This document shows, one piece after another, positions 10,027-34,840 of a stretch of 40,530 nt of DNA. The stretch is from a virus: the IMG/VR virus record IMGVR_UViG_3300033156_000526, positions 1 through 40,530 of that record. One strand, written 5' to 3'. Under the pieces are notes generated by a model. It made no database searches. It was not told the origin of the DNA and worked only from the letters and a program-made list of their open reading frames with translations. The translations under genes and the position numbers were made by a program. Within the stretch, counting starts at the first letter, position 1, and every line of letters starts with the position of its first letter.

Positions 10027-10350
10027 ATGAGAATCACGAACACGGGCGTATTGCAGCCGGGCTGTATGCAGCGCGTGACGGACCCAGTTTTCGGGGCGAT
10101 GATAATGCAGTTGCGCAGGGCGCAGAAGGGTTCGCGCGAGATAGTCTTGACCCCTGGTTCTCACGGTTGGGGCTATCTGCGACCTGAAATCCTCGCCCAG
10201 GTCCACGCTGCCAGGAAGGATGCAGCCACCTACTACAATTGCTCGGTGAATAACATCGAAATCCGCGTGATACTCGACTCGCAGAAGCGGGCAACGATAC
10301 ACGCCAGGCGCCGCGAATCGGTGCGTCTGGCCGAAGGAATGGCCAAGTAA
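10027..10350 (+). CDS. Hypothetical protein in head module, 107 aa
   Basis: The ATG at 10027 abuts the TGA of the previous gene, so translation is probably coupled. The product (MRITNTGVLQPGCMQRVTDP...) is compact with mixed alpha/beta character (SREIVLTPGSHGWGYLRPEI, NNIEIRVILDSQKRA). No known family is recognised. Position between portal and scaffold suggests a role in head assembly. Confidence 0.7.
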   Translation: MRITNTGVLQPGCMQRVTDPVFGAMIMQLRRAQKGSREIVLTPGSHGWGYLRPEILAQVHAARKDAATYYNCSVNNIEIRVILDSQKRATIHARRRESVRLAEGMAK

Positions 10351-10364
10351 AAGGGGCGGACAAA

Positions 10365-11180
10365 ATGCCACAAGACAAAGAGCAAACGGGCGTAATAGAC
10401 GACGCCGCCGGTCGTCAAGTAACGGGCGTAAATCAAGATGTTTCTGGCGCCGCCGGCCAGCAAGACAATTCCGGTGCACCCGGTGCTGACGAAGAGAAGC
10501 AGGGAATGCTTGCAGCAGTTCAGGCCGAACGAAAGGCCCGGCAGCAGGCGGAGCAGGAGCTTGAAAATCTCAAGCAACAGATGCAGCTCCTTCAGTTTGC
10601 GCAGATGCGCGGCGCTATGGCCAATCCTGCGCAACCCGGTGCAGTGCCGGTCCAGGAACCGGACCCCTTCGCCGATGAGGCCCAGAACCTCAGCGACGAA
10701 GACCTAATGACTGTTGGGATGGCGAAGAAATACGTTGCCAAAATCCAGCAGCAGCAACGACAACAGGAATTGCAGATGCAGGTTCAGCAATTCCGCCAGC
10801 AGCACGCTGACTTTGACGAGCTTGTCGGGACAATCGACTTGTTGGGGACGTTCAAGCCGAGTCCGCTTCTCCAGGAAGTGCTCCGCGAACATCCGTACCT
10901 TGTGAACGACCTCGCACAGTTGCCTTCCGCCCCGATAGTCGCGTACAACCTCGCCAAGCAGAAGAAGTTGGAGAAAGAGCTCCAGGAGATGCAGAAGCGC
11001 AGCCAGGAGCACCAGACCCTGCAAAACGCACAGGCTCAAACGAAGCCTATGCCAGCGGCAGCGGCGGGGACCTCATCCGGCGCATCGAATCAGATAGCGA
11101 ACCTTGACCCGGAGAGGCCCGAAGACCGCCAGGCCATATATAAGCTCGTCGATGATATGCTCGCGGGCAAGTTCGGCTAA
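10365..11180 (+). CDS. Scaffold-like head assembly protein, 271 aa
   Basis: Scaffolds template the procapsid and are then removed. A Gln/Gly-rich acidic N-terminus is followed by long charged coiled coils (residues about 50-80, QAERKARQQAEQELENLKQQ; about 123-145; 210-225) and a basic, helical C-terminal end. No enzymatic motif is seen. Length, high Gln/Glu/Lys content and the place immediately before the major capsid gene are typical of podovirus scaffolds. AGGGGCGG lies about 10 bases before the ATG. Confidence 0.75.
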   Translation: MPQDKEQTGVIDDAAGRQVTGVNQDVSGAAGQQDNSGAPGADEEKQGMLAAVQAERKARQQAEQELENLKQQMQLLQFAQMRGAMANPAQPGAVPVQEPDPFADEAQNLSDEDLMTVGMAKKYVAKIQQQQRQQELQMQVQQFRQQHADFDELVGTIDLLGTFKPSPLLQEVLREHPYLVNDLAQLPSAPIVAYNLAKQKKLEKELQEMQKRSQEHQTLQNAQAQTKPMPAAAAGTSSGASNQIANLDPERPEDRQAIYKLVDDMLAGKFG

Positions 11181-11236
11181 AGCCGCCAAGAGATGATAAA
11201 ACCGAAGATATGACCAACTGAAGGAGATTACGAGCT

Positions 11237-12169
11237 ATGGCTGACAAGAATATGACGACGACCAGTCGGCTCGACCATCCTGTCGGGATACACTTCATCA
11301 AGCAGTTTCTTGCTTATGCGATGCCTGGTATGCCCTACGCCAAGTTCGGGCAGCAAGTGACGATGCCGGCACACGCGGGCGAAACTGTGAAGTTCCGAAG
11401 ATGGGCGGCGCCGACGGCCCAGACGACTCCGCTTCAAGAGGACGTGGACCCCGCGCCCATTTTGCCGCACAAGACCGACATTTCGGCCACTGTGCGGGAG
11501 TACGGCGCCAGAGTTCGCGTCTCGGCCTGGCTGGACCTTACCGGGTTGAGCCAGGAAGGGGCCGAGTTGACCAAGTGGCTCAGTGACCAGTTCGCACTGA
11601 CAATCGACACGCTCTGTCGAGAGGTTCTGGCGGCAGGGGCAAGCACGTATACCTGCGCCAACGGCAGCCCGACGACGACACTGCTGAACGCGACAGACCT
11701 CGATATTGTGGTCCAGACGCTCCTCGGCAACAACGCCAGGCCCATAACGCCTCTGATGACTGCCGCTGTGGGCCAGGGAACCAGCCCGTTGTCCGATTCG
11801 TTCGTCGTGATTGCCCATACGGACCTCTACAGGGACCTCAAGGCGGTTGCCGGTTGGCGGGATGTCCGCAACTATGCGGCTCCTGGCCAGGCATACGACG
11901 GCGAAGTCGGGGCCACGGACCACCTGCGATGGATACTGACGACGAACGGCTACAAGAGCGGCAGCAACTACTACTGCACCGTGCTGGCGCGCGACGCCTT
12001 CGGCAACATCAGGATTCCAAGCGGGGAAAAGCTCCTCGGCTACAAACCCCCGGAGCAGGCTGGAAGCGAAATGAACCGGTACAGCGTCTATTTCTGGCTG
12101 GCGAATTATGTCGCCCAGATTCTCAATGACGCTTATCTCATCAACATCATCTGCACGAAGAGCAGCTAA
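11237..12169 (+). CDS. Major capsid protein, N4-gp56 family, 310 aa
   Basis: Forms the icosahedral shell. The start MADKNMTTTSRL has GAAGGAG 12 bases upstream. The HAGETVKFRRWAAPTAQTTP segment (about 50-69), DISATVREYGARVRVSAWLDL (about 84-104) and ALTIDTLCREVLAAG (about 122-136) follow the N4 gp56 capsid pattern (a K/R-FRR strand, a VxQYG-x-V/A strand, then LDxxxREVL-A/N-G). FVVIAHTDLYRDLKAV and LLGYKPPEQAG fit the domain further on. The family is about 310-400 residues, so this is a compact member. Confidence 0.9.
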   Translation: MADKNMTTTSRLDHPVGIHFIKQFLAYAMPGMPYAKFGQQVTMPAHAGETVKFRRWAAPTAQTTPLQEDVDPAPILPHKTDISATVREYGARVRVSAWLDLTGLSQEGAELTKWLSDQFALTIDTLCREVLAAGASTYTCANGSPTTTLLNATDLDIVVQTLLGNNARPITPLMTAAVGQGTSPLSDSFVVIAHTDLYRDLKAVAGWRDVRNYAAPGQAYDGEVGATDHLRWILTTNGYKSGSNYYCTVLARDAFGNIRIPSGEKLLGYKPPEQAGSEMNRYSVYFWLANYVAQILNDAYLINIICTKSS

Positions 12170-12194
12170 CATCTGAATCTGAAAGGACAGGCAA

Positions 12195-12821
12195 ATGCGA
12201 ATCAAAACCGGTAGATTCGTCGGAGACGGCGGGTTGGTGTATCTGCCGATAGGCTTCGTCCCGGACTTCTTCTTTCTGCTGGACCACGCTACGAACGCAC
12301 TCCTCTACTATTGGTTCGAGGATATGGAAGACCTTGAGGCTTCCGGCAGCCAGGAAGGCGTCAAAGACGCTGCTGGCACGAAGACCAAACTGGCGGACGA
12401 CGGCGGAATCGTGGCGTATGACAGCGGCTCTGAGGGGCCGAGTATTGCAGAGTGGGAAGCCTCGACAAGCTATACGGCGCGCTCGGCGACGGCACACGGC
12501 GATTATGTCAAGCCGACCGGCAGCGGCGTGACCGAGGAAGGCGATGCGGCGGATACTCAGGCCATTTTTGAGTGTGTGACTGCTGGGACGAGTGGTTCAA
12601 GCGAACCGGCGTGGCCCGTCGAAATCGGCGGTCAAGTCAACGACAATGGCGTTTATTGGGAGCGCGTGAACGTTGCCCACGAGCGCCTCGGCTACCAGGG
12701 AGTGCGCGTGGCTGCCGCCCTTCAGACGGACGGCAACTCGTACTACTACTTGGCGCTGCAAGGCGAAAAAGCCAATCACGGCGACGTGACCGGCTGGACG
12801 GACGGCGTTCAAGGCGCGTAA
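12195..12821 (+). CDS. Putative capsid decoration protein with WxA-GTSG-EPxWP repeat domain, 208 aa
   Basis: AAAGGA precedes the ATG. The N-terminal 50 residues are hydrophobic/aromatic (VPDFFFLLDHATNALLYYWF). Residues about 85-160 hold the phage module WEASTSYTARSATAHGDYVK...FECVTAGTSGSSEPAWP...NDNGVYW, a small beta domain related in look to carbohydrate-binding modules and often found on virion surfaces. It sits right after the capsid gene, so decoration of the head is the best guess. No enzyme signature. Confidence 0.6.
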   Translation: MRIKTGRFVGDGGLVYLPIGFVPDFFFLLDHATNALLYYWFEDMEDLEASGSQEGVKDAAGTKTKLADDGGIVAYDSGSEGPSIAEWEASTSYTARSATAHGDYVKPTGSGVTEEGDAADTQAIFECVTAGTSGSSEPAWPVEIGGQVNDNGVYWERVNVAHERLGYQGVRVAAALQTDGNSYYYLALQGEKANHGDVTGWTDGVQGA

Positions 12822-13825: not shown

Positions 13826-14517
13826 TGTTCGGCAAGATGAAAGAATCATTTCGCAGGGCCAAATCCCTTCTGAAGCGGCGAATGGCAAGGATTATATCCG
13901 TGTTGCTGTTGCTGCTTTTCGTGCCGGTATTGGTCTATTCGGCTTACGGTGCGATAGCCTGGCGTTGGGAATACAGCACGAATCCTACGTTGATGGACGC
14001 CTATCTGCGCAATCCGTTGTTCGCGCAGGCCGAGGTCACATCGTTGACCGCCGGCTCTGTCACGCTAAACAGCGGTGCGTTGACTATGGCGAATACTTCG
14101 TCCATAAACGTGGCAACTGTCGAATTGACGAACGCCGAAATAAAGGCGCTGGCCACAACGTCGAAGGAACTCATCGCGGCCCCAGGCAGCGGCTATTTCA
14201 TCGAGGTAATCCAGGCTACGTTGATTCTGGACTACGGGTCCAACGCACTGACGGCAGGCTCTTCCGATGACCTCGTAATCGAATACGGTGGCGGCCAAGA
14301 CATCACCGGCACGATTGAGAGTACGAGCTTCATAACTGCTACGGCGGATACGCTCTGTCTCGTGCAACCTGCCGGCATAGCGAATGTTGCGGCATCGAAT
14401 ATAGTGAACAAGGCCGTTCAACTTACAAACACGGGTTCGGACTTCGCCGGCAATGCGGGGAACGACACGACAATGACGGTCTTGATAGCGTACCGAACGC
14501 ACGCAACCGGACTCTAA
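13825..14517 (+). CDS. Membrane-anchored or signal-bearing virion-module protein, 230 aa
   Basis: AAAGGAG precedes the TGATG start. The N-terminus is basic (FRRAKSLLKRRMARI) followed by a hydrophobic segment at about 25-45 (SVLLLLLFVPVLVYSAYGAI), like a signal anchor. The rest is Thr/Ser/Ala-rich with beta-strand character (VTLNSGALTMANTSSINVAT), typical of phage fibre or decoration domains. The hydrophobic start is unusual for a virion protein and is shared by two downstream fibre genes. Last gene before the hairpin at 14544. Confidence 0.65.
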   Translation: MFGKMKESFRRAKSLLKRRMARIISVLLLLLFVPVLVYSAYGAIAWRWEYSTNPTLMDAYLRNPLFAQAEVTSLTAGSVTLNSGALTMANTSSINVATVELTNAEIKALATTSKELIAAPGSGYFIEVIQATLILDYGSNALTAGSSDDLVIEYGGGQDITGTIESTSFITATADTLCLVQPAGIANVAASNIVNKAVQLTNTGSDFAGNAGNDTTMTVLIAYRTHATGL

Positions 14518-14543
14518 GAAGGTCCCATTGTTTTCCTTTCTCG

Positions 14544-14577
14544 GATATGCGCGCCGGCCAGGGCGGGCGCGCATATC
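14544..14577 (+). terminator. Perfect 12-bp hairpin between head and tail modules
   Basis: GATATGCGCGCC (14544-14555) pairs exactly with GGCGCGCATATC (14566-14577) with a 10-base loop. It occupies the 84-base gap after the stop at 14517. There is no U-tract, so it may be an RNA processing or stability element or a weak attenuator rather than a full terminator. Confidence 0.5.
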
Positions 14578-14601
14578 TATGAACTTGGAGGCCCGGACGC
14601 A

Positions 14602-15642
14602 ATGGCCGTCACACTTGCTACAATCCGCGCCGACTGGCGAAATCTGACCGGACGCCACTCGACGAACGACATCAGCGACAGCGACGTAGATGCCCGAATC
14701 AACGAGTATATGCGCCTGCACCTGCCGTATGAAATCAACTTCGATTCGCTCCTGGCTGACTGGACGCAGGCGACAAGCCCTTATGACGACGGAGAATACA
14801 GTCTCGGTCAGGATGTTCTCGATTTGAATCCGCCACTGTTCGCCGACGATACCGAGCTCGTTATCTATGAGGACCGTGAGCTTTTCTTCAGGGATTTTCC
14901 GCCCTGGGCGGACGAGGACTTCATCACACCGCCGACATTGGCAATCGGTACGGCGAGCACGGCGAAGGTTGCGAGTGCCGCCTTCACGTACAAGATTGGA
15001 GACTACGCCTACGATAAGTCTGCCGCCGAGACGGCGCTTTCCGGTTCGACCGTCCCGCAGAACAAGTGGGGCGCGTGGCTTCTGTACATCGACGATGACG
15101 GGACCATAAGCGTCTCCGAGGCGGCCTCTAACGCCACGGGATATGATACGCCAGCAAAGGCTATCGATGGCATAACACTGCCTGGTTCGTCTTACGCGAT
15201 TATGGGCCTGGTTCTTGCCAAAAGTACGGATGCTGGCGGCTTCATTCCCGGCACGACAGAACTGGATGATGCTGCTGTAACCGACCACTACGTCGATGGT
15301 AATCCTTCCCTGCGGGCGGCGCCGACCTACGCTTGTGTGGCGGGCGGAAAACTATTCATTCGCCCGAAACCGGACGAGACATACTACCTGCGAGCAACCC
15401 TCAGCCTCAGCCGGCCAAGCACCCTCTCAGGTGATTCCGATACCGTCTCGGACGATGTTCTGGCGAAGTTGATAGCGGTTGGCGCCGCCATCGCATACCT
15501 CGCCGAGCGAGGCGACGAGCAGCGGGTTGTCGAACTCGTCGGCAACGCGAAAGTGCCGGGAACGCTCGAATATCTCAAAGCAATCGTCAGTCGCAAGCGG
15601 CTCCGCCAAGAGCACGCAAGGGAATGTAGGCGGCAGTTTTGA
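14602..15642 (+). CDS. Putative head-tail adaptor protein, 346 aa
   Basis: GGAGG lies ten bases before the ATG. The N-terminal segment LATIRADWRNLTGRHSTNDI followed by SDSDVDARINEYMRL matches the start of many phage adaptor or tail accessory proteins, where helices pack under the portal. An inserted beta-rich domain (about 110-230) interrupts it, and the C-terminal part returns to helices (DDVLAKLIAVGAAIAYLAER, YLKAIVSRKRLRQEHA). Its place between head and stabilisation genes supports an adaptor role like P22 gp4, without the enzyme domain. Confidence 0.6.
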   Translation: MAVTLATIRADWRNLTGRHSTNDISDSDVDARINEYMRLHLPYEINFDSLLADWTQATSPYDDGEYSLGQDVLDLNPPLFADDTELVIYEDRELFFRDFPPWADEDFITPPTLAIGTASTAKVASAAFTYKIGDYAYDKSAAETALSGSTVPQNKWGAWLLYIDDDGTISVSEAASNATGYDTPAKAIDGITLPGSSYAIMGLVLAKSTDAGGFIPGTTELDDAAVTDHYVDGNPSLRAAPTYACVAGGKLFIRPKPDETYYLRATLSLSRPSTLSGDSDTVSDDVLAKLIAVGAAIAYLAERGDEQRVVELVGNAKVPGTLEYLKAIVSRKRLRQEHARECRRQF

Positions 15643-24047: not shown

Positions 24048-24998
24048 ATGGCAACCGTAATCCCTTATACTCCAACACTCGACCCGCTCGGTATGGCGCT
24101 TGGCGGGGCAATCGGTCAAGGCATACTCAGTGCCCAACAGCAAGCCGAGTGGAATGCTCTGCTCGACAATCTTCAGAATTATCTTCGGACGATGATGCCT
24201 GCGGAATTGGCGGGAACGCCCCTCGGCCAAGCCTACCGGGAAGGTATGTACAACCCGATGACTATTGCGGGGCTGCCGGCGAACGTTGTGCGGAACCTGA
24301 AGGACCCGGAGATGCGGCAATTGGCCTTTGCCGCGATGATGCGCTCTCTGGTCCCGCAAGGGGGCGCGGGCGCGGCACTATCTGTCCGGTCTGGCGCAAG
24401 ACAACCTGGTGTCCAGGCAGGCGCCGAGCAGGGGGCTATGATGTTCGGCGATGTGCCCGCGAACGACTTTCTTGCCCTTCTCGCCAAGACGAACCAGATT
24501 CTAAATGACGCATACGAGACCCAGACTGTGACGAGAGTAGACCCGCTTACGGGCCAGGAGACTACGCAGGAAACAACGCGAATCAAACCGGGACGCGAGA
24601 AAATTGCCGCCTTAGTGCCGCAAATGATAGACGCCCTCTTCAAGGCAGCCGGGATAGAGGTCAAGACGCGACAGACTGGAGCAGGGTGGACGTGGCAGGA
24701 TGCTGAGCAATCAAAGGAGTTTATGGAGAATGCGCTGCTCATATCTTCCTTTATGGCCAGCGCATCGCCGCACGAGAAAAAAATGCTGACTGATATTCTC
24801 CGCAAGGTAGGTATTTCGCCGGAGAGTGCGCGTGAAATAGCGGAAGCGATAAGACGGGACCATCCTGATTTTCAGCCACAACAGACGCCAGCGCCCCAGA
24901 CACGGCAGCCTGGTAAAGGTTCTGCATTAACGGGACAATCGGAGGGTGGCTATTGGCCTCAATTTCCCGGTTATACCATTCCGAGGTCAACGCGATGA
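24048..24998 (+). CDS. Helical internal virion-like protein, 316 aa
   Basis: AAAGGGAG precedes the ATG. The N-terminal PLGMALGGAIGQGILSAQQQ is a Gly-rich hydrophobic stretch, followed by long helices (WNALLDNLQNYLRTMM, RQLAFAAMMRSLVPQ) and a Pro/Gln-rich C-terminal tail. No enzyme signature. By order it may be the gp15-like partner of the giant protein, whose ATG overlaps its stop as ATGA. This close link supports joint synthesis and assembly. Confidence 0.6.
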   Translation: MATVIPYTPTLDPLGMALGGAIGQGILSAQQQAEWNALLDNLQNYLRTMMPAELAGTPLGQAYREGMYNPMTIAGLPANVVRNLKDPEMRQLAFAAMMRSLVPQGGAGAALSVRSGARQPGVQAGAEQGAMMFGDVPANDFLALLAKTNQILNDAYETQTVTRVDPLTGQETTQETTRIKPGREKIAALVPQMIDALFKAAGIEVKTRQTGAGWTWQDAEQSKEFMENALLISSFMASASPHEKKMLTDILRKVGISPESAREIAEAIRRDHPDFQPQQTPAPQTRQPGKGSALTGQSEGGYWPQFPGYTIPRSTR

Positions 24999-27900
24999 CG
25001 CTGATACTTGAACCCAGCCGACTCAAGCCTGCCGAGGCACCGAAGAGCGCACTGTCCACTTTGTACGAGCGCGCTGTCGGTGAGCCTTACATTCCCCGAC
25101 CAACCGAAATCGAGGGGCCACCGGCACCGCGACGTTCGGCTCTCGAAGAGCTCTACTACAAGGTTGGTGGCGAACCGATACCCTGGGCCGATACAGCAAA
25201 AGGCTGGCTTGAGGTAATGAAGGAAGACCCCTCGGAATGGATACCGTTCGTTCGCAGTCTGGTCGAAGGGGTGGATTTACTGAGCGTTTACGAAGCACGG
25301 AAACGTTTAGGCGCGGGTCGGACCGCCGATGGTGGCTATGGCGGGCAGCCCTTTGAAAATTGGGTCAAGTTAGCCCGTTCCTATAGAACAGCGGGCCTAC
25401 CGCCCGATTTAGCAGCGAGAATCCCCGATTGGATTGCAGCCCTTCACGAAAGGTGGATTGCTGGCGGTTCTTTTGATGTTCTTGGGCGCAAACGGCAATT
25501 CTATGAAGAATTGCGAAAAGATTTGCCTCGCAACCTTCCACCCAAAGAGCTCGATATTGCGGTCGCCGAAAGGCTTATCGCACGACAGGAAAAAGCCGAC
25601 CGTGAAACGGTAGAGCAATTCAAGCAGAAGCTCGAAGAAGAATACTATCGTGGCCATACTTTTTGGGGGAAAGTCGGAGAGATTCAAAAGGGTCTTGTGC
25701 CTTGGATGCTGGAGTTTGTGGCAACAGGACCGATTTACAGCCGCGCTTCACAAGCAGCGAAAAGCGCCATAAGCAAAGTCGTCAAGAGAGAACTTACGGC
25801 CAAGGTGCTCGGTTCTTTGGTTGGTGGCACCGTCGGCTCAGCGGCCCGGACGATGGCGTTGCCGACGCAGGTCTTTGAAGAAACGATGCGCCGGCGGATA
25901 GGCTATGAAGACGAAGGCTGGGCTACGAGCCTGAGCAAGGCTTGGGTGAAAACCTTCATCGAGGCAGCAAGCGAAGAATCTGGCGCAGGAATGGGTAAGG
26001 TTGTTGGCACGCTGGGTGGCGGCCTAAAGTGGGTTGCCAGCAAGAGCCGCTTCAGCCAACGCTTTCTCGCATCAATTGCAGAAGCCTGGACCAAGGCAGG
26101 AAAGGCCCGGAGCCTCGTTGATTTTGTCGATACCGCCCTGCGCGCCGGTGGCTGGAACGGAATCCTTGAAGAAATCGGGGAAGAGCGTCTGGCGACCATT
26201 CTTCACGCGATTGCGAATACTGAGGATTTCGGGCTTGGGCCAGAAGCCACCTGGACTGACAGGCTCGCTGCCGGCCTTAGAGAGGACCTGAAACTAAAGA
26301 ATCTTGCTCCCGAAGCTGTGGGCCTCGCTACGCCCGGTGTCCTAAAAGCAGGCGCTTACGGGCTTGAGATGATGCAGGCCAGGAAGCGTTGGGAGCAACT
26401 ACGGCAGGAGTTGATAGACAGCATAAATGAGGCGTCAAAACGATACGGCGCCGAACCCGTGCCCCCAGAAAAGGCTCCACCCTCGGTCCGTCCCCCAAAA
26501 GCGCCCACAGAAGGGCCGCCCACAGAAGGGCCGCCCACAGAAGGGCCGCCCACAGAGGGACCGCCCACAGAGGGACCGCCCACAGAAGGGCCGCCCACAG
26601 AAGGGCCGCCCACAGAAGGGCCGCCCACAGAGGGACCGCCCACAGAAGGACCACCCACAGAAGAAGACATAGGGACTCTGACTGAGCCGAATATCGGCGG
26701 TCTTGCTGCGCGATTCAGTAGGCGAATCGAGGAAGCACTTAAGGTCGTGGAACCGGAGAGGATACATTCCTGGACGATTCGTCGTTGGGCTGCGGATGAG
26801 TACGGCGTTAGCAATCAGGATGTTTACAACGCTGGGCCTTCTGTTTGGAAGCCGATAGAAGAGGCGGCTGAGCTCGCTTTCGTCAACCAAGCCAGGAGAA
26901 TCCTCTCGTCGGGGCTTTCCGCTGACGAAGAAGCTCGGCTCATTCGCAAACTCTATCAAATCCAGCCTGTATTCGGTGGCCGGCGAACGAGCACGCAGAT
27001 AGAGAACCAGGCGTACAGTACGCCGTTGCCCCTTGCGTATGAGATAACGCGGCTGCTCGGTATTGGGCCTGATACGAAGGTTTATGACCCCACTGCCGGG
27101 ACCGGTATGTTGTTGATGGGCGCCGACCCTCGGAATGCCCGCGCCAATGAAATCGACCCCGTGCGCGCCGCAGCCCTTGAGGCCCAAGGTATCCCAACGA
27201 CGCGCGAAGACGCAACCACGACCAAGCCGATAGAAGATAAGAGCGTTGAGGTTGTTGTAACGAATCCGCCTTTTGGCAAACTCGATAAGCCAGTCGAAAA
27301 GGATGGCTATAGGCTTACGCGAAAAGAACACGTTATTGCGGCGAACGCACTCGACGCGATGGCAGATGACGGCTCAGCGGCCATCATTGTCGCGGCGCCA
27401 CGAAGCAAGAGCGCTACGCTCCCCGGCGGACTTCAGACATTCTTCAATTGGCTTGAGAGCCGCTACAACATCGCTGCGGTCAAAAGAGTCCACGGCAAAC
27501 TTTATGCTCGTATGGGTACGAGGTGGCCGGTTTTTCTCATTTTCGTCGAGGGGCGAAAATCTCCGGCAGAAACAGCCGCCTACGAGATGGCAAGACAACA
27601 GGCTGAAGGCCGAAAGCCCGGCGTTGAGACCGTGGCGACCAAAGAAAAAGGGGCGCGTCGGTATAGTTTTGAAATAGAGGAAGACGAGACTGTCGAAGCG
27701 TTTGCCAAGGGACGCGAAGGTGAGTGGAAATACAGCTTTGAGATAGAGGATATAAACTCGTGGGAAGAGCTTGGGGAACAATTTGAGAAGCTAAAGGAGA
27801 AGATGCCAAATGCGCGTCGTCGTCGTAGGACCAGAACAGAGCGAAAGGGCGCTGCTGATACTGGGGGTCGTGGTGGACAAGGGCCAAAAGCTCCCCCGCA

Positions 27901-30900
27901 ACCTGGACCAGTGGAAGAACCTCCTGAAAGACCGCCTGGGCCAACAGGCCCAACGGGAGCTGGCGAACCCGGCGGAGGAGGAGTACCTCCAGGCCCAACT
28001 GGAGGACCTGGCGCCGGAGGAGTTCGGCCCGGAGGCGGCCCAGGTGAACAGCGAGAACCTGGCGGAGCTCCTGGTGGAGTCGGAGTTCCTGGCCCGGAAC
28101 CCCCTGGTGGCGAGGGTGGCGGAGTGGTATCGCCTGGCCCCGAAGAAGCGCCCGCGCCCGAAGGCGAGCAAGGAGTTCCTGGCCCTGAACAACCGACAGA
28201 AACTCCAGGAACTACGCCGCCTGAGCCTGGCGCAGTACCTGGACAACCTGGCATCAAGATAGACCTGACCGAGGACAAGCAGGTCCCCTATGAGGGATTG
28301 AGCAAAGGGCCTGACGCTGGCCAGAAAATGCCTGCCTCGCTGAAGGTCCACTATCTCAACGCTCTTCATCAGGCCAAAGAGAAGGTCGGTGATATTGACG
28401 AGTTCGTCCGCGACCAACTCGGCTTCGACTCAAAAGAAGAACTGTTCGAGAACCTGAGCAACGTCCAGATTGACACGATTGCATTGGCCTTGGTCCAGTT
28501 CGACGCTGGCAGGGCTTTCATTATAGGACACCAGACCGGCGTTGGCAAAGGCCGAGCATTGGCGGCTGTTGTAAAGAGGGCATTGGAAAAAGGCGAGAAA
28601 ATCGTATTCGTCACGAGTAAGGCGAACCTGTTCAATGATTTTCTCCGAGACCTGATAGATGTGGGCGTTGATATAAACACTCTGCGCCCACTACTGACCA
28701 ACGCCAACACGTCGATATTCACACCCGAAGGAAAGCGCTGGGCCAAGAGTCGGGGTCGGCGGAAAACAAATAGCCACCTTCGGGCTACACTCAACAACGG
28801 CAATTGGGATATTCTTTTCACCACGTACAGTCAAATCCAAACAGGTGAAAGCGCTGAGTTGCAAAGCCTTCTAACCCAGGCCACATCAGGCAACCTGCTG
28901 CTTATGGACGAGGCGCACCTTGCTGCCGGAAAAGACAGCAACCGCAACATTTATTTTCTGGACCAACCGCTGCGGGTCGCCAGGCACGTACTATACAGCA
29001 GTGCAACCTATGCCAAACGTGCCGACAGTATGACGATTTACGGCCCAACTGGTTTGCTTGGCGCCTTCGACAATGACATCGACGCACTCATCGCCTCGGT
29101 CACGAGGGGCGGTGGGCCACTGCAAAGTATCATTGCCGCGACAATGGCCGCTGCCGGCGTCTATGCTCGTGCAGAAATCAACTTCGAGGGCGTGGGCTTT
29201 GAGACCCAATTTGTTGGTTCTTCAAATGAAGGTCAAGAACTCGTCAGAAAACAGTGCGACGCAATAAGCGATATAATTATCGAGCTGGTCAAGTTCGACG
29301 CTGTACTTGAAGACTGGATAAAGGGGGCGGTAAGAAAGCATATCGGGCCGAACCGCACGATAACACACGCGCAATTCTTCAGCCACCTACACAACATCGT
29401 TCGTCAATTCCTGGCAGTTCTCAAGGTTCAGCCTGCTATACAGGAGGCCAAAAGAAGCCTTCAACAGGGACGCAAGCCTATAATCGTTGTTGACAATACG
29501 GCACAGAGCCATCTCAAGCGATGGATTCAAATAGCGTCGGACTACGGAATGGACCGCTCGGACTTCTCGTACAGAAGCATCCTCTTGAGTGTTCTTCGAC
29601 AGATGATGTCGTATAGTGTGCGGACGCACATCGGCAGGAGCCAGCACACAAGTATCCACCCGGACGAACTACCGCCGCACTTGCGCCAGTCGTATGATGC
29701 TCTCGTCCAGACCATTATCAATTTCCCGTATGATTTGCCAGGTTCTCCGATTGATGCGATTATCAATAGTCTTCGGGCCGATAACATAAGAATTGCGGAG
29801 ATAACAGGCAGAGATTTCACCATAGAGCCAGACGAGAGAACGGGCGTCCTCGGTATCAGAGCTCGCCCCGATAGTGTCGAGATACGCTGGAACACGATGA
29901 GGGACTTCAATAGTGGGGAACTCGATGCCCTGATAATGAACCGCGCGGCTGCTGAGGGCGTAAGCCTTCACGCAAGCGTCCGATTCAAGGACCAAAGGCC
30001 GCGCGATATGATTCTTCTTCAGATGCCGCTCGATATAAATCAGGCGGTTCAGATTATGGGCCGAATCGCAAGGATGGGCGAGGCTGAAGGCGCGCGGCCA
30101 CGTTATGTGAGCATTGTCCTGCCGATTCCCGCCGAGATACGACCGGCTGCGATTCAGGCCAGTAAGCTCAAGAGCCTCAGTGCCAATACGACAGCTAAAA
30201 GTGAAGGCGTTTACGAACTGCCGACGCCCGTGGACTTGATGAACAAATATGGTGACTTGGTCGTCGCCCGCTTTATTCTTGAGCATTATGATAAATTGCC
30301 CTCAATCCTCTTGTCGGGCATTTCCCGCGAGGTCTTAGAAGAAGCTGTGCCGAATGAGAGCTTTGGGGCCATTCGGGACCTTGCAAGAAAGTTTACCGCC
30401 CGTATGCCTCTGCTGCCGATAAACGTCCAAGAAGAGATTTACGAGGAGATTACGGCTGACTATGAGGCATACATCGACTATCTGAACGCGACAAATCAGA
30501 ACGACCTCGTGCACAAAGAATTGCCCCTTGATGCGGTTCTTCTTGACAGCAGGGTCGTGTTCCCCGGCGACTCAGAAATGAAGGACCCATTCCGCACGCC
30601 CGCAACGTTGGACAGGATGCGCGTCCGAGTCCTCGTGCGGCCATATACGCAACAAGAGATTGACGCCCAAATCGACGCCGAACTAAAGGACTATGAAGGC
30701 AGTGCCAGGGTCTGGATTCGGGAGCAGAGAAGAAGGCTTGAGACGATGTATGCCGATTATACTCGGCGACTCAAAGCCGAGGGGCGCGAGCCAACGCAGG
30801 CAGCAAGGGCGGCCTTCCACAAGGCCCTTGACGCCATAGAACACGCTGCCCCTGGAATGATGAGGTTGACTGTAGGCGGTATCCCGGTCATTTGCCTTGG

Positions 30901-33900
30901 TATTTCAAAACGGGCAGCGCCGAAGGTTGGCAATCCGAGTGCTCCTTCGGCAGTGCGATTGCGGGTGGCAATCCCCGCAGGCGGTAAAGAGGCGACATTG
31001 ACGCTGAGTCAATGGTTACGAGGCAAACCCATTGACACGGCAGCAAAGCATATCTTCTTCTCGACGGCAGTTTATGAACCGACCGAAGAGCGATATATTT
31101 TCAACGGTAACCTTATCGCAGCTATGGGCATCGCAGTAAACCCGCGCAACAGGGAACAGCATACTCCACAGGTTGTGACCTATACGCTTGCTGACGGAAC
31201 TGTTCGCACCGGTCTGCTGATGCCGAGGAACTTTGAACCTGAGGCTGCTTTGAGCGCACAGGTCCGGCTCAATGCAAGGACGGCCCTTGTCTTTTTGACG
31301 AACATTCCAGGCTTTTCGCACTACGTCGAAGCGGGGCCGGCGAAAATCCAAAGAGACCCTGACCACCCCGACCGTTGGAAGATTACCGTACCAATGAACC
31401 GCAAGAAGGGTGGCAGGATTTATCTGAACCAATCGATTCGGCAGATTGTTGGGGATTTTGCAGCTACCTCAAACCGAAGACAGATGGTCGCGTCGTTCGA
31501 GACCGACCAGTTATACCCTTTGCTGCACACCATCGAAGAGCTTGGCTATAGCCTTTGGACCGATGCTGAACACGCTGAGCTTGGCGGCACGATTCTCGAT
31601 GGCGCCGAGCATATCATAGGCCGCCCCAGAGGGCCTGGTACTCCAGAAGGCGGGGCTGAGGCTCTTGTACCACCGCTGCCGAAGTCAATGGAAGTCCCGG
31701 TCGAAACCGAGCCGACCGAAAGGGCTAAGGCCAAGCTCAAGAAACGAAAGCGACCTATCAGTAAGCACGAGATAGCACGGAAACTTACGCGAGTCACGAA
31801 ATCCACGGTAAAGGGGTGGCGTCGATTCAGGTCGAAGCTCTTGAAGAAAGCGGCAGGAGCTTACTGGAGCAGAGAAGACCTTATTCGCGTGATGAACGTT
31901 GGCAATCTTCGTACATTGAGCCACGAAATCGGGCATAGACTTTTTGATGTTCTTGGTGCATACGACGACATTTCCGAGAACAAAAGATTTGCGGTTCTCA
32001 ATGACCTGATAAGCCTTGGTCTGCGGCAATTTGCAAGCCAGGGATATGACCTTACGACCCTTGTACGAGAGGGGGCAGCAGAGCTCTTTTACTTTTACAT
32101 TACCGGCCAGGACGAAATCGTTCAAAGGCAAGTCCCGGCTGCGTATAAATATATGGTCGAGGATTTTCTGCCGCTCTTTCCTGAAATGGCCGAGGGTCTT
32201 GCAGAAATCCGCGATGCCGTCATTCTATGGCGCGAACAGGGCAGTGTGGCGCGCTTGGCTGCCGAGATGTACACGACCAAGCCAAAGAAGCCGATGGCCG
32301 AGCGGCTCTCTGGAGCTTACTTGTGGCTGCGAACAATGTTCGTCGATGTGGCCGCACCGCTTCACGACCTTCTCGACAAATATCTGCCCCAAGGCGTCCG
32401 CAACATCGAAGAACCTTTCTGGGACCCTGGATATTTCTTTGAGGCCCGCGCGATGAAGGCGCCACGAATGGCTTATGCCTTCGTCTTCAGCCGCACCTAT
32501 GATTTCTTTATGCAGCCCAATGGCGAATCCTTGGCCGACGCGGTCTCTGATGTTCGGGACAGATTCTTGGAGTTCTGCTGGTATATGGTCGCCCGACAGG
32601 CGCGCGTATATCACGAGAGAGGGCTTGATTCGGGCTTCCTTGAGGTCGATTTTGAGGCCGTCATAGCGAAATATGATTGCGAACTCTTCCGGCGGACGGC
32701 AGAGAGAGTCAGGCTTTGGTCTGCGCGAGTCCTGCTATATGTCGCCCAAGCCGGCGCGATGAAGACCGAAGAGGTTACGAAACTGCTTGTGGGCAACCCG
32801 TTCTATGTGCCGTTTATGCGGGTCTTCCAAGACGAAGAAAACCGCTTCTTGTTGAGGACAGGCGGTCGCAAAGGTATCACGAAGGTCGGCAGACCCGTTC
32901 ACGCCCGAACTGGTTCGGGCCGGGCTATCTACGACATATTCGACTCGATGATGCTGATGACAACGCGGTTGCTTGCGATTGCCGACGCAACGCATATCGC
33001 AAGGTGTCTTGAACGACTCCAGGGAAAATATCCTGGGATGGGCGGATTTTTGACGGAGTGGAGTCCGCCAGTCCGAGTGACAGAAGTTTCTACCAGGGAG
33101 ATACTCAAAATCCTGGAGAAGTACGGCATACCCATAGATTTGCCAGAAGACGCTGCTGAAGAGGTTCTTGAACGACATCCGGTGATTCAGATTTTTCGCA
33201 ACTCCCCGGTATTCTTCGGGAAGGAATATGTCGTTTCGTTCCTGGTCGATGGTGAACGCAAGTGGTTCGAGGTCCACCCGATGCTCTACAGGATTCTCGA
33301 AGGACTCGACCAGTACCTGCTTCCGCGCTTTTGGCACTTGACGGCTGGGATGGCAGCGAGAGCCGTCCGTCTCGGCGCGACGGGCCTCAATCCAGCGTTC
33401 GGTATTGTGTATAACCCGATACGCGATGCCGTCGATTCTCTGGTAAAAGGCAAGCACGCCGGTGGGCCGCTTGACTTGGTGCGCGGGACTGCGCGCGGAT
33501 TCACCACCAGCCGTGTTGGCAAGATGTTGGGTGTTGACCCCGACGAAGCTGCCCGGCAATTGATTGATATGGGTATCAGTATCAGCACCTTCATCGGGCA
33601 AGACAGGCGGGCGGTACACCACCTTCAGGGCGAATTGCTGGCCAAACACTGGAAGGATTACGCCTTCTTGATGGGCAAGCATCCGATAGACGCCTTACGG
33701 GGACTTTTCAACGCGACCGAGGTCGGCTTGCGCGTCGAGGAATACCGTAAGGCCCTCGAATGGTGGATGAAGAAGCACGGCTATGCCGACAGGCCCATAG
33801 AAGAAGCCCCGCCCGACGCGAAGATGTACGCTTTTCTCCGCGCCCAGGATATGACTATCAACTATTCTCGCGCCGGTGCGATTGGACGAATCCTCAATCA

Positions 33901-34840
33901 GGTAATACCGTTCTGGAATACGAACATTCAGGATATGTCCAAGATTGTCCGCCTCTTCAAGGAGCGCCCGCTGGAGGCGCTGATTCTGGCACTCAAGAAC
34001 CTGACAATCCCCGCACTCTTGTTATGGTGGTTCTACAAAGACGAAGACTGGTACAAGAGCCGCCCCGCGTGGGAAAAGGCCAACTACATTCACGTCCCCT
34101 TGCCGAACAAAAAGGTTATGCGGCTTCCGGTCCCCTTCTTGATGGGCCACTTGTTTATGAGTATCCCCACAGCCGTCTTCGATGCGGTTTACCGTGCGGA
34201 CCCGGACAGGGTCAAAGAGCAGTTGAAAGAGACCTTTGACGCGAATCTTTACCCGGTTCTTGCGGCCTGGCCCGCACTCATTCACCCAATTGTTAGACAA
34301 CTACACGGGAAGGATTGGGCGGGTAGGCCGATTGTGCCGGAATATCTCAAGTGGCGCAGGCCCGAAGACCAGTATCTGCCGTACACAACCGAGTTCGTCA
34401 AAGCCGTCGGCAAGGCTCTGAAAATCTCTCCCTTGCGGCTTGAACACCTCCTGAACAGCTATAGCGGCGGGCTTTATCGACGGGTTGCGAAGACATTCGA
34501 GGTCGGCAAGATACAGAGCGAGGCCGATTGGCCGCTCCTTGGTCGGCTCTTCACTCGTGACCCGATGGCCCCGCGTGCAGAATTGACGCGATTCTACAAA
34601 GAAAGGGATAGGCTTCGCAGACAAGCTGCATCGCAGCGATTTGATAAACCGATAGACTACTACCATTACAAGCTCTATCTTGACGCGAACCGACGCCTGG
34701 CTCCGCTCTGGCGGACATTGCGAAACACGACAGACCCGGCGAAGCGGCGCAGGATATTCGACTATATGCGAAAAATACTTACCGACCTTGAACGACGAAG
34801 GGAGATTGTTGCTGCCAATTTCCGCCGGTCGAGCGGCTGA
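24995..34840 (+). CDS. Giant polyvalent virion protein: methyltransferase, SNF2-type helicase, zincin, LPD38; 3281 aa
   Basis: The ATG at 24995 overlaps the upstream stop (ATGA). Residues 1-500 are helical with ELYYKVGGEPIPW-type repeats and hydrophobic patches; 505-554 are ten TEGPP repeats. A methyltransferase domain has YDPTAGTG at 697 and NPPF at 757-760 (N6-adenine type). A Gly/Pro linker follows at about 945-1085. A strawberry-notch-like helicase has GHQTGVGKGR at 1178-1187, DEAH at 1305-1308 and QIMGRIAR at 1686-1693. A zincin motif HEIGH is at 2310-2314 with Glu at 2359 and 2363 as third-ligand candidates. The C-terminus (about 2700-3060) is LPD38-like, with GLNPAFGIVYNPIRDAV and TINYSRAGAIGRILNQVIPF, then a hydrophobic helix near 2993-3015. 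Such proteins are thought to be ejected with the DNA, like T7 gp16 or N4 vRNAP. No RNA polymerase motif is seen. Confidence 0.85.
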   Translation: MTLILEPSRLKPAEAPKSALSTLYERAVGEPYIPRPTEIEGPPAPRRSALEELYYKVGGEPIPWADTAKGWLEVMKEDPSEWIPFVRSLVEGVDLLSVYEARKRLGAGRTADGGYGGQPFENWVKLARSYRTAGLPPDLAARIPDWIAALHERWIAGGSFDVLGRKRQFYEELRKDLPRNLPPKELDIAVAERLIARQEKADRETVEQFKQKLEEEYYRGHTFWGKVGEIQKGLVPWMLEFVATGPIYSRASQAAKSAISKVVKRELTAKVLGSLVGGTVGSAARTMALPTQVFEETMRRRIGYEDEGWATSLSKAWVKTFIEAASEESGAGMGKVVGTLGGGLKWVASKSRFSQRFLASIAEAWTKAGKARSLVDFVDTALRAGGWNGILEEIGEERLATILHAIANTEDFGLGPEATWTDRLAAGLREDLKLKNLAPEAVGLATPGVLKAGAYGLEMMQARKRWEQLRQELIDSINEASKRYGAEPVPPEKAPPSVRPPKAPTEGPPTEGPPTEGPPTEGPPTEGPPTEGPPTEGPPTEGPPTEGPPTEGPPTEEDIGTLTEPNIGGLAARFSRRIEEALKVVEPERIHSWTIRRWAADEYGVSNQDVYNAGPSVWKPIEEAAELAFVNQARRILSSGLSADEEARLIRKLYQIQPVFGGRRTSTQIENQAYSTPLPLAYEITRLLGIGPDTKVYDPTAGTGMLLMGADPRNARANEIDPVRAAALEAQGIPTTREDATTTKPIEDKSVEVVVTNPPFGKLDKPVEKDGYRLTRKEHVIAANALDAMADDGSAAIIVAAPRSKSATLPGGLQTFFNWLESRYNIAAVKRVHGKLYARMGTRWPVFLIFVEGRKSPAETAAYEMARQQAEGRKPGVETVATKEKGARRYSFEIEEDETVEAFAKGREGEWKYSFEIEDINSWEELGEQFEKLKEKMPNARRRRRTRTERKGAADTGGRGGQGPKAPPQPGPVEEPPERPPGPTGPTGAGEPGGGGVPPGPTGGPGAGGVRPGGGPGEQREPGGAPGGVGVPGPEPPGGEGGGVVSPGPEEAPAPEGEQGVPGPEQPTETPGTTPPEPGAVPGQPGIKIDLTEDKQVPYEGLSKGPDAGQKMPASLKVHYLNALHQAKEKVGDIDEFVRDQLGFDSKEELFENLSNVQIDTIALALVQFDAGRAFIIGHQTGVGKGRALAAVVKRALEKGEKIVFVTSKANLFNDFLRDLIDVGVDINTLRPLLTNANTSIFTPEGKRWAKSRGRRKTNSHLRATLNNGNWDILFTTYSQIQTGESAELQSLLTQATSGNLLLMDEAHLAAGKDSNRNIYFLDQPLRVARHVLYSSATYAKRADSMTIYGPTGLLGAFDNDIDALIASVTRGGGPLQSIIAATMAAAGVYARAEINFEGVGFETQFVGSSNEGQELVRKQCDAISDIIIELVKFDAVLEDWIKGAVRKHIGPNRTITHAQFFSHLHNIVRQFLAVLKVQPAIQEAKRSLQQGRKPIIVVDNTAQSHLKRWIQIASDYGMDRSDFSYRSILLSVLRQMMSYSVRTHIGRSQHTSIHPDELPPHLRQSYDALVQTIINFPYDLPGSPIDAIINSLRADNIRIAEITGRDFTIEPDERTGVLGIRARPDSVEIRWNTMRDFNSGELDALIMNRAAAEGVSLHASVRFKDQRPRDMILLQMPLDINQAVQIMGRIARMGEAEGARPRYVSIVLPIPAEIRPAAIQASKLKSLSANTTAKSEGVYELPTPVDLMNKYGDLVVARFILEHYDKLPSILLSGISREVLEEAVPNESFGAIRDLARKFTARMPLLPINVQEEIYEEITADYEAYIDYLNATNQNDLVHKELPLDAVLLDSRVVFPGDSEMKDPFRTPATLDRMRVRVLVRPYTQQEIDAQIDAELKDYEGSARVWIREQRRRLETMYADYTRRLKAEGREPTQAARAAFHKALDAIEHAAPGMMRLTVGGIPVICLGISKRAAPKVGNPSAPSAVRLRVAIPAGGKEATLTLSQWLRGKPIDTAAKHIFFSTAVYEPTEERYIFNGNLIAAMGIAVNPRNREQHTPQVVTYTLADGTVRTGLLMPRNFEPEAALSAQVRLNARTALVFLTNIPGFSHYVEAGPAKIQRDPDHPDRWKITVPMNRKKGGRIYLNQSIRQIVGDFAATSNRRQMVASFETDQLYPLLHTIEELGYSLWTDAEHAELGGTILDGAEHIIGRPRGPGTPEGGAEALVPPLPKSMEVPVETEPTERAKAKLKKRKRPISKHEIARKLTRVTKSTVKGWRRFRSKLLKKAAGAYWSREDLIRVMNVGNLRTLSHEIGHRLFDVLGAYDDISENKRFAVLNDLISLGLRQFASQGYDLTTLVREGAAELFYFYITGQDEIVQRQVPAAYKYMVEDFLPLFPEMAEGLAEIRDAVILWREQGSVARLAAEMYTTKPKKPMAERLSGAYLWLRTMFVDVAAPLHDLLDKYLPQGVRNIEEPFWDPGYFFEARAMKAPRMAYAFVFSRTYDFFMQPNGESLADAVSDVRDRFLEFCWYMVARQARVYHERGLDSGFLEVDFEAVIAKYDCELFRRTAERVRLWSARVLLYVAQAGAMKTEEVTKLLVGNPFYVPFMRVFQDEENRFLLRTGGRKGITKVGRPVHARTGSGRAIYDIFDSMMLMTTRLLAIADATHIARCLERLQGKYPGMGGFLTEWSPPVRVTEVSTREILKILEKYGIPIDLPEDAAEEVLERHPVIQIFRNSPVFFGKEYVVSFLVDGERKWFEVHPMLYRILEGLDQYLLPRFWHLTAGMAARAVRLGATGLNPAFGIVYNPIRDAVDSLVKGKHAGGPLDLVRGTARGFTTSRVGKMLGVDPDEAARQLIDMGISISTFIGQDRRAVHHLQGELLAKHWKDYAFLMGKHPIDALRGLFNATEVGLRVEEYRKALEWWMKKHGYADRPIEEAPPDAKMYAFLRAQDMTINYSRAGAIGRILNQVIPFWNTNIQDMSKIVRLFKERPLEALILALKNLTIPALLLWWFYKDEDWYKSRPAWEKANYIHVPLPNKKVMRLPVPFLMGHLFMSIPTAVFDAVYRADPDRVKEQLKETFDANLYPVLAAWPALIHPIVRQLHGKDWAGRPIVPEYLKWRRPEDQYLPYTTEFVKAVGKALKISPLRLEHLLNSYSGGLYRRVAKTFEVGKIQSEADWPLLGRLFTRDPMAPRAELTRFYKERDRLRRQAASQRFDKPIDYYHYKLYLDANRRLAPLWRTLRNTTDPAKRRRIFDYMRKILTDLERRREIVAANFRRSSG
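26507..26656 (+). repeat. Ten 15-bp repeats encoding TEGPP
   Basis: Ten in-frame copies of ACAGAAGGGCCGCCC, with GAG/GGA and CCA variants at the third positions, encode (TEGPP)10 in the giant protein between its N-terminal helical region and the methyltransferase domain. It is probably a flexible linker whose copy number may vary. An eleventh copy is cut short to TEED. Confidence 0.95.
27810..28262 (+). CDS. Nested +1-frame ORF inside the giant gene, possible overprinted gene, 150 aa
   Basis: The ATG at 27810 is preceded by CTAAAGGAG with a ten-base spacer, as good as most sites in this genome. The frame ends at 28262. It lies fully inside the giant gene and covers almost exactly its Gly/Pro-rich linker. 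The product begins MRVVVVGPEQSERALLILGV and is otherwise helical and Leu/Glu/Gln-rich (WKNLLKDRLGQQAQRELANP, ENLAELLVESEFLARNPLVA, AEWYRLAPKKRPRPK, QKLQELRRLSLAQYLDNLAS). Only about 18 of 150 codons end in A or T. However, a Gly/Pro linker naturally opens a stop-free shifted frame rich in Leu, Glu and Ala, so composition alone is weak evidence. The ribosome-binding site and the ATG at the linker start are the main support. No homolog is recognised. Confidence 0.45.
   Translation: MRVVVVGPEQSERALLILGVVVDKGQKLPRNLDQWKNLLKDRLGQQAQRELANPAEEEYLQAQLEDLAPEEFGPEAAQVNSENLAELLVESEFLARNPLVARVAEWYRLAPKKRPRPKASKEFLALNNRQKLQELRRLSLAQYLDNLASR

Follow-up and report, generated by a model that had tools for sequence, protein, structure and literature searches.

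A very likely old overlapping gene in the linker of a viral methyltransferase-helicase gene

The locus and its coding content

The window, meaning the whole stretch of DNA under study, comprises the 40,530 bases of a virus record. It contains a giant gene for a polyvalent protein, hereafter the host gene, and a second, short open reading frame (ORF) lies inside it on the same strand. The relevant features, in window coordinates, are as follows.

24953-34840, + strand: host gene, polyvalent protein, 3,295 codons
26933-27566, + strand: N6-adenine methyltransferase region of the host gene (Pfam N6_Mtase just below cutoff; homolog alignment A2; profile end)
27567-28345, + strand: main-frame linker, whose Gly/Pro-rich part coincides with the nested gene
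27792-27794, + strand: TAA in the nested frame, just 5' of the nested start
27794-27799, + strand: AAGGAG, putative Shine-Dalgarno site lying 10 nt 5' of the nested ATG
27810-28262, + strand: putative nested gene, ATG start, 150 codons plus TAG, +1 relative to the host frame
28346-30499, + strand: Strawberry-notch type helicase (AAA_34 and Helicase_C_4)

In Pfam searches of the host gene, AAA_34 and Helicase_C_4 scored above cutoff, and N6_Mtase reached 19.9 bits against a cutoff of 20.4. Despite this sub-cutoff score, the methyltransferase aligned with its homologs over the full length. The host gene is thus an adenine methyltransferase with an SF2 helicase fused at its C terminus, and its product also has an LPD38 domain. 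The methyltransferase profile match stops at approximately 27566 and the helicase profile match starts at approximately 28346; the nested ORF takes up the interval between them. A start codon and an open frame are present within the frame of another gene (27810-28262 in +1 of 24953-34840). The +1 frame is open only from 27795, with 5 open codons 5' of the nested ATG, and the nested-frame TAA at 27792-27794 therefore leaves scant room for frameshift entry from the main frame. The 10-nt spacing between AAGGAG and ATG is common to the window and its nearest relative, L005. The original prediction of a 150-codon +1 ORF with an ATG and a Shine-Dalgarno sequence, spanning the methyltransferase-helicase linker, was borne out by the coordinates and profile ends, as was the occurrence of Trp, Tyr and Phe in its product (8 such residues).

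A codon preference in the linker had been offered as a hint of constraint on the nested frame. The preference itself is real: CCT accounts for 46% of Pro codons in the linker versus 15% in the rest of the host gene, and GGA for 41% versus 12% of Gly codons. GC3 is 0.35 in the linker and 0.60 in the rest of the gene, compared to 0.62 +/- 0.04 in recodings with the gene's own usage. The contrast drawn with a nearby TEGPP linker was weaker than claimed, as that segment is a tandem repeat whose codons cannot count as independent, and GGA makes up 40% of its Gly codons. This repeat, at 26507-26656 and N-terminal to the methyltransferase, has ten tandem copies of TEGPP with near-uniform codons, every Thr being ACA.

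The accompanying caution, that Gly/Pro codons by themselves open this frame, also held. When main-frame amino acids were fixed, the nested frame was also open in 39% of linker recodings based on gene codon usage, and in 10% of within-linker synonymous shuffles; openness in the window is not above chance. The codons of the linker suffice to give the composition of the nested product. Two long antisense ORFs span the linker as well (27580-28278, - strand, 232 codons; 27791-28417, - strand, 208 codons), as expected from linker composition. Openness and composition of the window ORF were thus rejected as stand-alone evidence. Because these properties say little in the window alone, the case was rested on homologs. 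The observation of the nested ORF was right, and its significance rests on these homologs.

Searched as a single sequence, the window nested product had no family match. Viral contig scans with single-protein queries gave 1 match for the methyltransferase segment, 0 for the helicase segment and 0 for the nested protein. No close DNA relatives of the window were found in the phage collection, and constraint was therefore measured on homologs and not in the window's own lineage.

Other ORFs were observed elsewhere in the window. A 159-codon ATG ORF at 33760-34239 (+ strand), read in +2 relative to the giant gene and over the LPD38 region, had a weak tblastn match to L005 (2.7e-4) and probably only reflects conservation of the main frame. 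Antisense ORFs of 407 and 325 codons (14065-15288 and 11228-12205, both - strand) oppose forward ORFs.

Homologs, codon-level constraint and start signals

Alignment of the helicase recruited 80 viral and 80 genome loci. A locus was called a carrier if both enzyme domains were within one ORF and the linker had a +1 ORF with 80 codons or more. Every one of the 79 viral homologs that encode both domains in a single ORF had the +1 ORF; the viral locus outside this group, L050, has an ORF that begins just 180 bases 5' of its match. Among genome loci with both domains, 32 of 72 were counted as carriers, not including L162, whose nested gene was found by genome-wide search. Median linker length was 160 codons with the nested ORF versus 72 without it. 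Across the nested spans of 77 non-redundant loci, 161 stops were expected from synonymous resampling and 0 were observed; as the spans were chosen as open, this deficit is an indication and not a clean probability.

Searches with nested profiles gave a consistent picture of placement. In all 58 viral loci found, the match is in +1 relative to a long ORF (at L040, another nested-profile search also has its match in a host ORF, which contains masked bases), and all 15 whole-genome matches that were checked are in the +1 frame of a methyltransferase-helicase gene. No copy of the nested family was detected outside a methyltransferase-helicase gene in the loci and approximately 700 genomes searched. 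Carriers approximately 2,000 residues in size occur in cyanobacteria. Five matches to the nested family profile were seen in one cyanobacterial genome, that of Nodosilinea sp. LEGE 07298 (G002, the genome of L090).

The nested proteins of deeply diverged loci are homologous to that of the window. Against an HMM of 39 nested proteins from which the window was left out, the window ORF scored 28.8 bits (E 8e-8), compared to a best score of 11.2 bits among 2,000 synonymous recodings of the window linker and 9.0 bits among 1,000 residue shuffles. BLASTP of the nested proteins of the window and L005 gave an E value of 2e-8, and no alignment was obtained between the main-frame linkers of the two. The window ORF thus matches the family profile (core/A3) and shares its linker position and frame. 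Matches of 1e-6 or better to the same HMM were obtained for 74 of 117 nested ORFs, 39 of which are in the model; the rest had weak or no match. A4, the gut Bacteroides-type group, aligns collinearly with the core family but has only a weak profile link to it (hhalign E 8e-4, probability 24%), and some other nested ORFs beyond A4 had no link to the core family detectable by profile. Given these weak or absent matches in part of the set, homology of every nested ORF is not shown.

Codon-level constraint was assessed in 547 pairs selected by helicase identity, with alignment on the main-frame protein, a procedure that, if anything, disfavours the nested reading. Changes at main-frame positions 1, 2 and 3 were distributed as 39%, 32% and 29% in the overlap, 22%, 15% and 63% in the helicase, and 24%, 18% and 58% in the methyltransferase. 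Within the overlap, main position 3 thus changes least and position 1 most, whereas the two flanking domains show the reverse trend. In the overlap, 476 of 547 pairs had more changes at position 1 than at position 3; in the helicase, 0 of 547 did. These pairs are not mutually independent; among disjoint pairs the excess was seen in 26 of 29, A4-type pairs included, and one of the 26 (L150/L160) is not a true carrier pair. The third codon position of the nested frame is the most variable in the overlap. Median dN/dS, taken over 406 pairs selected by nested identity, was 0.39 for the nested frame, 1.52 for the main frame in the overlap and 0.09 for the helicase. Equal synonymous variation, which had been named as a refutation, was not found, as main-frame third positions are suppressed in the overlap and first positions vary most. 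Comparison of the HMM score with recodings, codon positions, and dN/dS in both frames all indicate that the nested frame is conserved beyond what the host frame dictates.

Initiation signals were also conserved. A perfect AAGGAG or AGGAGG at most 16 nt 5' of the nested ATG was found at 54 of 114 starts, compared to 0.6% of other +1-frame ATGs in these genes. Among the 54, spacing was 7 in 45 cases and 10 in 7, the latter including the window (AAGGAG-N10-ATG) and L005; the nested gene thus has its own initiation signal. No Shine-Dalgarno core of any kind was present at 31 of 114 nested starts, many of them in the gut Bacteroides-type group. Hosts of Bacteroides-type members initiate without Shine-Dalgarno sequences, and its absence there is expected. 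A stop codon lies directly 5' of the nested ATG in 45 of 114 loci. The other outcome named beforehand as refuting, homologs that keep the linker but have stops or a lost ATG or Shine-Dalgarno site in the nested frame, did not speak against the gene either, as the frame was open in all 79 viral homologs with both domains and a perfect hexamer was present at 54 of 114 starts.

Presence and absence of the nested gene were mapped on a helicase tree, which is a quick tree with long branches and a midpoint root. Only 2 changes were needed, versus 17 with shuffled labels. The window and L005 form a joint branch close to the base, and the single large group without the nested gene is a clade of Bacteroidota chromosomal proteins. 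This distribution implies that the overlap is old. The proposal of an overprinted gene was thus supported, more strongly than claimed: the family is old and widespread and not a local overprint. In the same tree, the dyad of L142, a MAG labelled Staphylococcus sp., groups with phage contig L072 and adjoins the Bacteroides-type branch; the label may be unreliable.

A bolder reading is that the nested gene is the older one, and that separate methyltransferase, partner and helicase genes were joined by read-through in another frame. Codon-position composition of the overlap is compatible with it, being ordinary in the nested frame (mean GC1 0.61, GC2 0.36, GC3 0.71) and abnormal and unconserved in the main frame. 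The linkers of outgroup loci L004 and L163 lack the nested gene, and the order of the two frames is therefore unsettled. We regard such a joining as possible but lean slightly against it. Its corollary, that the linker is the overprinted newcomer and the partner has been trapped inside since, is equally tentative.

Predicted fold, function and alternative explanations

When family member L018 was modelled by AlphaFold2 with a 55-row family alignment, a confident fold was predicted (pLDDT 93.9, pTM 0.88). The window ORF, modelled as a single sequence with no alignment, gave a poor model (pLDDT 39.9). A Foldseek search of the family fold against PDB and a viral-structure library had no hit better than E >1 and TM of approximately 0.3, and no covering family was found in Pfam, PHROGs, NCBIfam or PADLOC. 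Only scattered weak matches to family models were detected (the best, 2.9e-4, in 2 of 55 members), and none amounts to a significant, consistent match to a known family or solved structure. No earlier account of this nested gene turned up in open-access full text, to which the literature search was limited.

The homology among nested proteins, the constraint at codon level, the start signals kept across loci, the confidently predicted fold and the unbroken association with the methyltransferase-helicase gene together make it very likely that the nested ORF is a genuine, old overlapping gene for an undescribed protein family, an inference from sequence alone without expression data. That the protein is made in the cell is also very likely, again by inference, as there is no transcript, ribosome-profiling or protein evidence. 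The most likely route, with initiation supported by sequence, is that ribosomes start independently at the internal Shine-Dalgarno/ATG on the giant gene's mRNA. The product would be a small folded alpha/beta protein of approximately 17 kDa. Selection in the overlap would act mainly on this protein, and the main frame would mostly need only to stay open; hence a flexible linker rich in Gly, Pro, Glu and Arg and nearly without hydrophobic residues. We interpret the Gly/Pro linker as a weakly constrained shadow of the nested gene.

The function of the nested protein is less certain. As no family member was found outside a methyltransferase-helicase gene, it could be a small accessory or regulatory partner of this enzyme produced from the same message; there is no direct evidence, and we consider this reading as likely to be wrong as right. 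Being far shorter, the nested protein could accumulate before the giant protein is completed. P1 DarB belongs to the virion head and shields phage DNA against type I restriction (PMC5512222); by analogy, the partner might tune such a protective activity or assist in its delivery. It had been suggested that the small protein is made during synthesis of a virion protein, but virion status of the host protein rests only on this analogy. The cyanobacterial carriers of approximately 2,000 residues suggest a tie to the enzymes and not to packaging.

Several alternatives were considered. The one that survives best accepts a real nested gene and makes its product an independent counter-defence or infection protein hitchhiking in the linker. 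The 114 members have a mean net charge of -9.6, an acidity shared with many defence inhibitors, and the host gene resembles a published antirestriction protein (PMC5512222). However, an independent gene should occur elsewhere, which was not observed in the searches above, and the window member has a net charge of +1. This possibility is somewhat disfavored but remains in play. A DNA-mimic reading of the acidity is likewise unsupported for the window member.

A second alternative is that the frame is coding but reached by programmed frameshifting, which would yield a methyltransferase-nested fusion and no free small protein. The main frame does lead straight into the nested region, and in some loci +1 is open well 5' of the first ATG. 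However, a stop immediately precedes the nested ATG in 45 of 114 loci, Shine-Dalgarno hexamers often lie at a fixed distance from it, and the window has just the 5 open codons noted above, although no search for slippery signals stands behind this point. We consider frameshifting very unlikely.

A third alternative is that the ORF is an accident of composition, in which Gly/Pro codons remove +1 stops and the CCT/GGA bias results from avoiding extreme GC or hairpins. Chance openness of recodings, the composition given by linker codons and the open antisense frames are compatible with it. However, the family match is lost in synonymous recodings, relatives' nested proteins align when their main-frame linkers do not, the codon-position pattern is reversed in the overlap only, and the predicted fold is confident. 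In addition, in AT-rich L075, GC3 is higher in the linker than in the gene (0.37 versus 0.18); as it is raised and not lowered, GC avoidance cannot account for the bias. This explanation is all but excluded. The same is true of an RNA or DNA element in the linker, whose structure or binding sites could in principle constrain main-frame third positions, as changes track nested codon positions with the third the most variable, and nested amino-acid patterns are conserved and predicted to fold.

If the preferred reading, a genuine nested gene, is correct, annotation appears to have missed a whole gene family in phages and some bacterial genomes. The gene is missing from the annotation of both carrier records examined, Bacteroides phage BS-TP4 and a Chroococcidiopsis plasmid (the latter with an incomplete gene table), because gene finders discard long overlaps. 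In the phage record, PQ571277.1, the nested ORF spans 10032-10388. Work on these methyltransferase-helicase proteins would have handled two genes while knowing one, and changes to the linker would hit both. What looks like a disordered linker could then mark a hidden gene, and this pattern could be sought elsewhere. An overlap so old, folded and widespread is unusual and makes a case for asking how one sequence serves two proteins.

Comparison with known systems

The host gene has the domain order of the polyvalent methyltransferase-helicase dyad, whose archetype is P1 DarB (Iyer et al. 2017, PMC5512222). The described order is N6-adenine methyltransferase followed by SF2 helicase; in the window the helicase is a Strawberry-notch one, and the giant polyvalent protein also has an LPD domain. 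The word 'overlap' is absent from the text of PMC5512222, which likewise reports no nested gene. P1 DarB was considered as a carrier, but it is unmatched by the helicase profile used here and its linker was hence not compared. Chromosomal Bacteroidota methyltransferase-helicase proteins (L107, L113, L114 and others) have the same two domains in the same order and a related helicase, but differ in having linkers of approximately 50-80 residues without the nested gene.

Like other viral overlapping genes (reviewed in PMC8227390), the window gene is a small same-strand gene inside another, with its own start. Lambda Rz1 within Rz is a nested phage gene of that kind. Proteins that arise de novo by overprinting are often narrow in range and disordered. 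Unlike such typical overprints, the family described here is widespread and confidently folded by prediction, and it is the host-frame segment that is weakly constrained.
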